From an uncultured Candidatus Peregrinibacteria bacterium (GTDB lineage: Bacteria; Patescibacteriota; Gracilibacteria; Peribacterales; Peribacteraceae): a stretch of 64,000 nt of DNA. The notes beneath the pieces were generated by a model. The model saw only the letters and a program-made list of their open reading frames with translations. It was not told the DNA's origin and searched no databases. Where the stretch lies: the NCBI GenBank assembly GCA_903825315.1, contig CAIKAD010000005.1, forward strand, positions 124,001 to 188,000, read 5' to 3'. Below, piece after piece: positions 59,551-61,576 of this stretch; the first letter of the stretch is position 1; every line of letters starts with the position of its first letter. The position numbers and the translations under genes were made by a program.

Positions 59551-59997
59551 TCACTTAAACAGCTTCCCCAGCTCCTCTTTAAACTCTTCCACATCTTTGA
59601 ACTCCCGGTGCACGGAGGCGAAACGTATATACGCCACGTGATCTACCTTTCTCAGTTCGCGCATCACGTCCATGCCAACGGTGGAGGAGGCTACCTCCTT
59701 TTTATTGGCTGCCCATTTTTCTTCCAACTTGCCAAGAATCTTGTCGATCTGGTCCTGCGTGATGGGTCGCTTTGTGCAGGCGAGCCACACTCCCCTTTCA
59801 ATCTTGGATCGTGAATACGGCTCCCGGGTCCCGTCGCGCTTGACCACGATCAGGTTTGAGAGCTCCTGACGTTCAAACGTGGTGAACCGGTGGCCGCACT
59901 TGGGGCATTCGCGCCTGCGCCGCACCGCGCGCCCGTCCTCCGCGAGGCGGGAATCGACTACATTCGTATCCGGATCTTTACAGTGCGGGCAGTGCAT
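59551..59997 (-). CDS. nrdR: Transcriptional repressor NrdR
   Basis: 148 residues. N-terminal zinc ribbon MHCPHC...RRRRECPKCGHRFTTFE (two CxxC pairs) and an ATP-cone (VVKRDGTREPYSRSKIERGV, YIRFASVHREFKDVEEF). It senses (d)ATP and represses ribonucleotide reductase genes through NrdR boxes. No nrd genes are in the window. TATACT (60007-60012, minus strand) lies nine bases before the ATG. Confidence 0.95.
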   Translation of the reverse strand: MHCPHCKDPDTNVVDSRLAEDGRAVRRRRECPKCGHRFTTFERQELSNLIVVKRDGTREPYSRSKIERGVWLACTKRPITQDQIDKILGKLEEKWAANKKEVASSTVGMDVMRELRKVDHVAYIRFASVHREFKDVEEFKEELGKLFK

Positions 59998-60054: not shown

Positions 60055-60140
60055 AAAATGACCAAATTCCAAGTGCTAATGGCCAATCGGATAGGTCGAG
60101 ATTTCGTCTTTGCTCATTGGAAAATTGATCATTGGCCATT
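60055..60140. repeat. ATTGGCCATT inverted phrase repeat upstream of the serA leader
   Basis: AATGGCCAAT (about 60078-60087) and ATTGGCCATT (about 60131-60140) are perfect reverse complements within degenerate CCAATGACC-type words. Confidence 0.55.
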
Positions 60141-60146
60141 CGTTCG

Positions 60147-60174
60147 TTGACTCTTTTTCATGTTCCTCTACTCT
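60147..60174 (+). promoter_or_regulatory. serA leader promoter
   Basis: TTGACT (60147-60152), 16-base spacer, TACTCT (60169-60174). The predicted transcript start coincides with the leader peptide's GTG at 60182. Confidence 0.65.
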
Positions 60175-60181
60175 TCGAAAA

Positions 60182-60253
60182 GTGACCTGCCAGCGTTCTT
60201 CCTCCTCGTGCTCCTGCTCCTCTTCCTCTCGGAAGGGGTGCGTTGGCGCGTAG
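60182..60253 (+). CDS. Ser/Cys-rich leader peptide of serA (23 codons)
   Basis: GTG start seven bases after the -10, no ribosome binding site, TAG stop at 60251-60253. The peptide has MTCQR, a run of four Ser, then Cys-Ser-Cys, a run of four Ser, and RKGCVGA: nine Ser and four Cys among 23 residues. Too short for routine gene finders. Placement before a terminator and the serine biosynthesis gene fits a leader peptide that senses charged tRNA-Ser (and perhaps tRNA-Cys). The overlapping longer frame starting at 60160 is Leu-rich and is considered a shadow. Confidence 0.65.
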   Translation: MTCQRSSSSCSCSSSSRKGCVGA

Positions 60254-60279
60254 AAAAGAAGAAACGCCGACCCGCGCCC
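60235..60279 (+). promoter_or_regulatory. Antiterminator hairpin of the serA leader
   Basis: GGGGUGC + GUUGGCG (60235-60248) pairs with CGCCGAC and, after a 2-base bulge, GCGCCCC (60264-60279): about 14 bp with G-U pairs. The loop contains the leader peptide stop. Its 3' strand overlaps the 5' strand of the terminator, so the two folds exclude each other. Confidence 0.6.
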
Positions 60280-60303
60280 CCTCCCAGAAGCGGGGTTCTT
60301 TTT
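60268..60303 (+). terminator. Attenuator terminator of serA
   Basis: GACCCGC (60268-60274) pairs with GCGGGGTT (60289-60296, one bulged G), followed by CTTTTTT (60297-60303). It is located 25 bases before the serA ATG. Confidence 0.65.
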
Positions 60304-60328
60304 TATCTCCTCATTTCCACCCTTCCCT

Positions 60329-61576
60329 ATGAAGTCCGCAGAGTATCAGGGCGATATCGGCCCAGACGGAAATTTATATCCGTTCAAAGTGGCTGTCCGT
60401 GACGGCGTGAATGCAGAGGCCGTTGCGATGCTGAGTCAAACCCCTCACATGGAAGTGACGGACCCCAACGATCCAACAGCGCAGGGTGCACTAATCCGCA
60501 GCAAGACCAAGTTCAAAACGCCCGAAGAATTCGCCGTCTTTCCCCATATGATGTACGTCGCCCGCGTAGGAGTGGGCGTGGACAATGTAAACATGAAGCT
60601 GGCTTCCGAGAATGGCGTCGCAACGGTGAACACGCCGGGGGCAAGCACGGCGGCGGTGGCGCAGCGTGTCGTGGCACTGATGCACGGTTGGGCATCGCGC
60701 ATTGTCCAAGGCACCCAGGCATTACGGAGTCATGAGTGGCCGAAGGGGGATAAGAATGTGGAGCCTATCGATCTCAGCGAGAAGACGCTGGGAATCATCG
60801 GGTATGGGCGTATTGGGCAGGAGGTGCGGCGGCGCGTAGAAGGGGCGGTGGGCAATGTTGTATTCACAGATACAAATACGGACATTGAGGGGAGAATTGC
60901 CTTAGATGCGCTTCTGGCTCACTCCGACATTATTTCTCTCAACGTGGCTGGCAATGACACGATTCTTACGGAGGAAAAGCTGAGGCTGCTCAAGCCCGGT
61001 GCGCTCATTATTAACACTGCGCGCGGCGGGGTGATTGACCACGCGGCACTCCTACGAAAGATGGATGAAGGCGCATCGGCGGCATTGGACGTGTTTCCCA
61101 CAGAGAAGCAGGAAATGTTTGAAGATCCGATTATCAGCGGCATCGTGGGGCATCCCAATTTCCTCGGGACACCGCACACTGCAGCATCCGATCCTGTTAC
61201 ACAGAAGAAGTTGGCCAAGGAAGCGGCAGCGCGCATGCGGGAATTTGCACGGGAGGGCATTATTAATCCTCTCAATATCCCCGGCCATTCACTCCCCAAC
61301 GTATCGATGGACGGGACGGAAGACGGAGGCATTGTGCCGGGTATACGAGGGGTCTTCTTGCATCGCAGCGTGCCAGGCGCTCTCAATGCGGTGACGGACT
61401 GTATCGCTAAAAGGGACATTAATATTCACGATCTTCTCAACCGAGAGGGCCCCGATGGGCTTGCCGCAACAGTGGTCCATCTGGATGAGCGGGATCCGCA
61501 GGCGGCCTTGGCGATACTGCAGTGCATCAACGAGAGGCTCCGGCCGCTTCGGACGCGGCTTCTCCTCTATGTCTGA
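60329..61576 (+). CDS. serA: D-3-phosphoglycerate dehydrogenase
   Basis: First step of serine synthesis, 3-phosphoglycerate to 3-phosphohydroxypyruvate. 415 residues. The Rossmann fold GIIGYGRIGQEV, catalytic Arg in NTARGGVIDH and catalytic His in GTPHTAAS identify the 2-hydroxyacid dehydrogenase family. VGVGVDNVNMKLASENGVATVNTPGAS is typical of PGDH, and the C-terminus (GVFLHRSVPGALNAVTDCIAKRDINIHDLL...) is an ACT domain, the usual serine-binding feedback site. Thus both enzyme activity (ACT) and transcription (leader) may respond to serine. Own terminator at 61590-61621. Confidence 0.93.
   Translation: MKSAEYQGDIGPDGNLYPFKVAVRDGVNAEAVAMLSQTPHMEVTDPNDPTAQGALIRSKTKFKTPEEFAVFPHMMYVARVGVGVDNVNMKLASENGVATVNTPGASTAAVAQRVVALMHGWASRIVQGTQALRSHEWPKGDKNVEPIDLSEKTLGIIGYGRIGQEVRRRVEGAVGNVVFTDTNTDIEGRIALDALLAHSDIISLNVAGNDTILTEEKLRLLKPGALIINTARGGVIDHAALLRKMDEGASAALDVFPTEKQEMFEDPIISGIVGHPNFLGTPHTAASDPVTQKKLAKEAAARMREFAREGIINPLNIPGHSLPNVSMDGTEDGGIVPGIRGVFLHRSVPGALNAVTDCIAKRDINIHDLLNREGPDGLAATVVHLDERDPQAALAILQCINERLRPLRTRLLLYV

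Follow-up and report, generated by a model that had tools for sequence, protein, structure and literature searches.

Serine genes are regulated in cis by the serC leader RNA of alphaproteobacteria (Rfam) and by Ser T-boxes. The attenuators of trp, his, leu, ilv, thr and pheA are built around a short leader peptide rich in regulatory codons, a 1:2/2:3/3:4 strand anatomy and an intrinsic terminator before the gene, with termination as the default state when translation does not take place. In mycobacteria, leaderless polycysteine short ORFs have been described as working by translation attenuation (Canestrari et al., 2020, doi 10.1111/mmi.14498, as presented in PMC13236596 and PMC9031893), and the leader of ilvB1NC carries a uORF with regulatory codons together with a mutually exclusive terminator and antiterminator (PMC13236596). 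UCN serine codons have been found to report serine starvation via slow translation in Bacillus subtilis sinR (PMC3862929). Here we have analysed a locus from an uncultured member of the Peribacteraceae, lying in a stretch of 64,000 nucleotides (in the following, the window) on a contig that is part of a 1.29-Mb genome in 5 contigs (G000). Judged from sequence comparison, the region upstream of its serA quite probably forms a ribosome-mediated transcription attenuator with a leaderless Ser/Cys leader peptide (Table 1).

Table 1. Positions of the leader elements, of serA (both in window coordinates) and of the small-protein genes found behind related leaders (coordinates of the respective loci).
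Feature	Position	Strand	Remarks
Promoter TTGACT-16-TACTCT	60147..60174	+	boxes 60147-60152 and 60169-60174; 8/12 consensus bases
Leader-peptide gene GTG...TAG, VTCQRSSSSCSCSSSSRKGCVGA	60182..60253	+	23 codons: 9 Ser, 4 Cys
Predicted sensing codons 6-14 (Ser Ser Ser Ser Cys Ser Cys Ser Ser)	60197..60223	+	ribosome-mask folding
Hairpin 1:2, Ser/Cys-codon tract with purine-rich strand 2 and beyond	60193..60267	+	MFE folds
Strand 2, antiterminator 5' arm (AGGGGTGCGTTGGCGC)	60234..60249	+	overlaps end of leader frame
Strand 3, antiterminator 3' arm and terminator 5' arm (ACGCCGACCCGCGCCCCC)	60264..60281	+	
Intrinsic terminator, 3:4 stem then T6 (60299-60304)	60269..60304	+	arms ~60269-60277 / 60290-60297
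SerA-like D-3-phosphoglycerate dehydrogenase with C-terminal regulatory region	60329..61576	+	PF02826, PF00389
Fast-evolving small proteins (about 70-110 aa)	L058:1657-1914, L065:1089-1373, L053:1641-1925, L093:1258-1467, L085-L088 (L088:1179-1475), L063, L054	minus for L065, L093 and L088	

The promoter, the GTG 7 nt beyond the end of its -10 box and the 23-codon frame with its Ser and Cys codons are present just as the initial annotation had described them, and this spacing predicts a leaderless transcript that starts at or beside the start codon. The antiterminator stem and the terminator that it had placed before serA are found as well, and the two are mutually exclusive because strand 3 overlaps the terminator 5' arm. 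The antiterminator of the window reaches -26.4 kcal/mol, a value equalled in 3 of 300 dinucleotide shuffles, whereas the isolated terminator folds no better than shuffles (z=0.13); with its long loop and an alternative register at 60276-60296 (-8.3 kcal/mol), it belongs to the weaker ones of a family range that extends from -4.2 to -19.0 kcal/mol. Minimum-free-energy (MFE) folding, which had been suggested as a check, does give the whole leader an advantage over shuffles (z=-2.6), though this stems mainly from pairing of the Ser-codon tract with the downstream purines in hairpin 1:2, an element absent from the earlier description that has also been seen in MFE folds of most relatives. A recognisable Shine-Dalgarno sequence that could be masked is lacking before the serA ATG, and strict promoter and terminator scans of the window have returned nothing above their cut-offs at the leader. 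Taken by itself, the window leader is thus suggestive rather than convincing, as its Ser run could be a pyrimidine tract.

The surroundings of the leader show some further features. The repressor gene nrdR (59551-59997, with Zn-ribbon and ATP-cone) is divergent from serA, and the 331-bp intergenic region contains both promoters. Just 5' of the serA promoter, at 60105-60141, a stretch around TTGATCATTGGCCATTCG is repeated at C2:98551 and C2:176948 (86-88% identity); near 60078 there is a similar stretch in inverted orientation (AATGGCCAATC). The leader itself has been rejected as a repeat element, since a search of its own genome finds repeated copies for 60105-60141 only.

In the mechanism that we propose, RNA polymerase would start at or beside the GTG, and a ribosome would load on the 5'-terminal start codon. 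When charged tRNA-Ser (and/or tRNA-Cys) is short, this ribosome would stall with codons 6-14 in its A site and cover strand 1, leaving strand 2 free to pair with strand 3; the resulting antiterminator would block the terminator, and serA would be transcribed. With ample amino acids, the ribosome would reach the UAG and cover strand 2, the 3:4 terminator would form, and transcription would stop before serA. Without translation, hairpin 1:2 would keep strand 2 busy and the terminator would form, so that the default would be off. For this locus we thus infer that initiation is leaderless and that, in the cell, ribosomes stall, transcription ends prematurely and serA is induced.

Counterparts of this leader have been found in related genomes. 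SerA orthologs are patchy in the Peribacteraceae (12 of 74 genomes at E<=1e-40), and a counterpart leader stands upstream of serA in 8 of the 11 other ortholog genomes and before the more distant SerA of G025, so that the conserved short Ser-rich frame expected of homologous serA leaders has been recovered in nine other family genomes. Their order is a -10-like box, 6-8 nt, ATG or GTG and a frame of 18-26 codons (e.g., VNSAYVLSCSPVSSCCSLAGGTCA or MNSAYVLNCSPVSSWSSL; peptide pattern [MV]NxAY[VI]LxCSPxSS[CWS]...), followed by a G-rich strand at or just past the frame end and then a C-rich one; the terminator with its T-run lies 19-38 nt 5' of the serA ATG and is preceded by an alternative hairpin. 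An intrinsic terminator with a T-run follows every leader examined, and in each of the 28 Ser/Cys leaders a gap of 6-8 nt separates the best -10-like box from the start codon. The serA genes of G016 and G028 within the family, and of G039 and G051 outside it, do without this leader; in G089 the contig begins at serA, and the upstream region is absent. The G028 gene (L007), which has no attenuator, carries a clear leaderless promoter of its own, TTGACA-17-TACTAT-TGAACT-ATG.

The leader is close to confined to this lineage. Of 353 class genomes, 14 match a degenerate DNA pattern for the peptide, and every one of these belongs to the Peribacteraceae (reversed pattern: 0); among 84,980 species genomes the peptide pattern occurs on 13 contigs, essentially only of Peribacteria/Peregrinibacteria-type MAGs; the lone other match is in a MAG labelled Kiritimatiellales and has coordinates identical to those of G090. 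A covariance model (R1) adds 11 strong and 4 weaker leaders in the family. A second model (R2), built only from leaders of other genomes with the window left out, has matched 23 of 74 family genomes and 0 of 279 other class genomes at E<=1e-5. Besides the leader of the window, it finds 15 further leaders absent from its training set; the leader of G003, which belongs to the window's own genus (VHGILVRISSSSSWSCSPQRG), is found at E=0.0011. In total, candidate relatives of the leader, before serA or small proteins, are present in about a third of the family genomes. Scans of genome-contig and viral-contig collections with the SerA protein of the window have found no relative.

For the divergent peptide of the window, we consider the R2 match to be the decisive test of its putative membership in the leader set: the top match in the 64-kb window is 60182-60304, with exactly the predicted ends (E=0.0023; next match 2.4). 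Because a model trained elsewhere picks exactly this segment, the window leader is more than chance; as its score is modest, membership also relies on the location before serA and on the RNA anatomy, both of which it has in common with the other leaders.

The pairing of the strands has been followed across these leaders. Each of the 15 leaders tested has a 2:3 duplex that beats those with dinucleotide-shuffled upstream sequence (z -2.1 to -5.2). RNAalifold on MAFFT alignments has returned only hairpin 1:2 or a mixed structure; as the location of strands 2 and 3 differs between leaders, it misses the alternatives, and covariation has therefore been assessed from cognate versus permuted duplexes, using one leader per genus from 17 genera and 5000 permutations. 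Cognate partners reach a mean of -20.8 kcal/mol for 2:3 (permuted -16.0) and of -10.7 kcal/mol for 3:4 (permuted -7.3), and in either case 0 of 5000 permutations is as good. The stem cores co-vary across three strands, CCCTCG being matched by CGAGGG twice, CCCCCG by CGGGGG twice and ACCCGC by GCGGGT twice. The predicted antiterminator and terminator pairings thus covary across 17 genera.

The putative leader frame is under purifying selection, and in its own frame only: pN/pS of its first codons amounts to 0.29-0.40 in frame versus 1.3-1.8 in the other two frames. Since codons 2, 5-7, 9 and 11-14 are fixed in the pattern through which 5 of 14 leaders had been recovered, pN/pS has been recomputed for leaders found via serA alone (0.29) and via the model alone (0.40). 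Codons 13-16 encode Ser or Cys at 101 of 112 positions in the 28 leaders, and TCN accounts for 134 of the 138 Ser codons at positions 6-17, which gives UCN and UGY as sensing codons. Part of this choice may lie in the RNA, as the C/U-rich strand 1 must pair with the G-rich strand 2, and pairing alone favours UCC and UGC codons.

The effect of a stalled ribosome has been modelled by refolding the RNA with its 5' part masked up to a point 13 nt beyond where the A-site codon begins, i.e., by equilibrium and not kinetic folding. Over the 28 leaders, the probability of strand 3 sequestration in the antiterminator peaks (0.80) with codons 13-14 in the A site, and that of the terminator is lowest at codons 13-15 and back to 0.68-0.86 from about codon 17 to the stop. 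In the window, pairing of strands 3 and 4 falls to 0.00-0.09 at codons 6-13, is 0.45 at codon 14 and reaches 0.70-0.85 from codon 16 to the stop, so that the antitermination zone comprises codons 6-14 and coincides exactly with the Ser/Cys run; the terminator probability is 0.83-0.90 with a ribosome at the stop codon (footprints 10-16 nt) and 0.85 without any ribosome. The claimed switch, from antiterminator with a ribosome stalled on the sensed codons to terminator with a ribosome at the stop codon, has thus been reproduced in this model. Shuffling from nucleotide 52 (past codon 17) to the terminator abolishes it: the terminator probability at codons 13-14 is 0.22 in the real and 0.72 in the shuffled sequences (27 leaders). 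G003 has been excluded from this control and its part of the 28-leader profile is meaningless, because the automatic terminator choice took a wrong hairpin there. In four near-identical leaders with very strong terminators (G080-G083), the terminator persists at equilibrium despite a ribosome on the Ser codons. These four would switch only if 2:3 pairing that precedes the synthesis of strand 4 counts, the kinetic route by which attenuation is generally taken to proceed.

The sensed residue would be Ser and/or Cys, with serine as the best guess. That the main signal of the same attenuator is cysteine, or cysteine together with serine as its precursor, is unlikely on balance but has several points in its favour. 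Cys is frequent at codons 9 (23/28), 15 (18/28) and 16 (13/28), and Cys or Trp adjoins the Ser positions of maximal effect; the window leader has four single Cys codons, some relatives have Cys pairs, and a Cys-Cys-Cys run occurs only in G007 (codons 13-15) and G094. The window genome contains the cysteine consumer SufS, and in mycobacteria cysteine sensing by leaderless poly-Cys uORFs has been proven (Canestrari 2020, as cited in PMC9031893). Yet the codons at the antiterminator peak, 13 and 14, are Ser in 24 and 26 of the 28 leaders and Cys in one each, G086 and G088 make do with one Cys codon at position 9, and the recognisable downstream enzyme is SerA, not a Cys enzyme. Of the serine-specific sensing that the initial annotation had assumed, the dominance of Ser at the decisive codons has held up; the specificity has not, as Ser and Cys are not separated.

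Outside the Ser/Cys codons, relatives keep N2, Y5, L7 and P11, which is more than simple codon sensing requires. This conservation could speak for a nascent-chain arrest peptide of the TnaC/ErmL kind, for which a small molecule or the state of the ribosome, and not Ser/Cys charging, would be the signal: N2, Y5, [VI]6, L7, C9 and P11 are retained across genera with synonymous variation (e.g., Ser3 as TCT, TCA or AGT), and most downstream genes are not amino-acid enzymes. We regard such a peptide as distinctly improbable, since the antitermination zone follows the Ser/Cys codons instead of keeping a fixed distance to an arrest motif, and since the window leader has none of these six residues yet is Ser/Cys-rich with the same architecture, as are those of G003 and G007. 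Moreover, the N-terminal conservation is partly accounted for by RNA structure, as many folds pair the 5' part of the leader with downstream sequence.

A structured leader with terminator and antiterminator might likewise be a metabolite-binding riboswitch or a tRNA-binding T-box without a translated leader, which we hold to be very improbable: in an Rfam 15 scan of the leader no family, T-box, serC leader and riboswitches included, has reached its gathering score, and the matches, mostly to eukaryotic snoRNA and miRNA models, all lie far below the cut-offs; most of the variation in the RNA falls on third codon positions of the frame, and there is no large conserved unpaired core besides the coding part. 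Least credible of all is a chance pyrimidine tract beside an ordinary hairpin, or the frame 60160-60402 (80 aa, TM-like) as the real gene, for although the tract reads as Ser in one frame and Leu in another and the window alone fails the strict scans, blind detection, covariation, codon-level selection and syntenic relatives stand against it. The 80-aa frame extends 74 nt into serA, has no Pfam match, and its counterpart in relatives is not under selection.

Sequence comparison has thus brought out a conserved frame, a conserved promoter spacing, covarying alternative helices, and Ser/Cys codons aligned with the antitermination zone. The leader is very probably a conserved and functional ribosome-mediated attenuator, and the initial annotation holds in its essentials.

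Which gene such an attenuator serves is less uniform. SerA of the window is SerA-like by its Pfam domains, and its best PDB match is the D-3-phosphoglycerate dehydrogenase 3k5p (E=1.6e-34, residues 56-412); the best NCBIfam, PGDH, scores 172 bits against a cut-off of 454. In the window genome SHMT is present, no SerB has been found above cut-off, and SerC of the usual Aminotran_5 family has not been found, the sole Aminotran_5 protein being SufS. As SerB and SerC are not recognisable, a complete phosphorylated serine pathway is not evident, and the role in serine biosynthesis that had been assigned to serA is uncertain. The assumption of an attenuator controlling serA also needs to be widened: of the genomes with this leader, 10 have it before serA and 17 before genes for small uncharacterised proteins, which means that it is not a dedicated serA device.

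These small proteins have 62-194 residues and fall into several unrelated or barely related groups. Neither Pfam nor NCBIfam gives a match for the five that have been tested. In genus g28, the same slot, flanked by a flippase-like and a beta-propeller-like gene (named by eye), holds either leader and serA or leader and small protein. The fast-evolving members can be loosely divided in two: some share 'G.R[FY]..', others 'FW.YA' together with 'DLRH' at the C-terminus. Structure models are of low confidence (mean pLDDT 68 and 60); a beta-beta-beta-alpha model has a weak match to the Pur-alpha fold (E=0.07), which is no more than a hint.

Because the device controls SerA or fast-evolving small proteins family-wide, we read it as a Ser/Cys-starvation switch of Peribacteria. 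The leader set would mark a group of small proteins as probably induced by Ser/Cys shortage. Going further, one may tentatively consider a portable CPR-specific starvation module, in which a leaderless Ser/Cys attenuator has been joined to phosphoglycerate dehydrogenase or to unrelated small proteins, the latter being starvation effectors, and in which the N-terminal peptide may add nascent-chain arrest. If so, the small proteins would be amino-acid-starvation effectors of presumably host-dependent bacteria.

The same layout with leucine-rich frames has been seen at L094:1501-1617 (G012; LNLQLSLLLSLLLTAEGRLRA) and L095:1501-1630 on the minus strand (G070; MNSARLLLGLLLLPLIAGRRLAA). Both show the 2:3/3:4 switch in silico and precede other small genes (124 and 195 aa), and no clear promoter box has been found for either leader. 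These two may represent leucine counterparts of the device, or else a different reading frame of the same tract.

For uncultured bacteria, about 28 such leaders provide a testable regulatory logic, i.e., which amino acids are monitored, and they imply a coupling of transcription and translation from a leaderless start. Being self-contained in ~125 nt, the device lends itself to reporter fusions in laboratory strains and to work in vitro.

With the trp, his, leu, ilv, thr and pheA attenuators, the Peribacteria leader shares the codon-rich short peptide, the three alternative pairings, the intrinsic terminator before the gene and the predicted default termination without translation. Unlike these classical systems, it is predicted to have a leaderless start with no Shine-Dalgarno sequence, would sense Ser/Cys, resides in a CPR host and often stands before small genes and not before the operon of the sensed amino acid. 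The mycobacterial poly-Cys ORFs, as far as the cited accounts describe them, are similar in being leaderless short ORFs with a run of sensed codons, Cys codons and cis control of a downstream gene; they differ from the leader described here in its predicted intrinsic terminator and antiterminator, its mainly Ser codons and its different phylum. A contiguous Cys run as in the mycobacterial leader is absent from the window, where Ser dominates, and instead of the translation-level control of mycobacteria a terminator with T-run follows the leader. The ilvB1NC leader (PMC13236596) resembles it in its regulatory uORF, in its mutually exclusive terminator and antiterminator and in a similar ribosome-footprint model, but responds to branched-chain amino acids, is leadered and belongs to Actinobacteria. 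The B. subtilis sinR sensor has the UCN serine codons in common but acts within a coding gene and at the protein level, with neither leader peptide nor terminator (PMC3862929). Unlike the serC leader RNA and the Ser T-boxes, the Peribacteria leader is without an Rfam match. The open-access papers searched contain no report of ribosome-mediated or leader-peptide attenuation in Patescibacteria/CPR, nor of a transcription attenuator with a serine leader, and none has been described there for sensed Ser/Cys. Ribosome-mediated attenuation as such is a known kind of control, of which the leaderless Ser/Cys version in CPR bacteria appears to be new.
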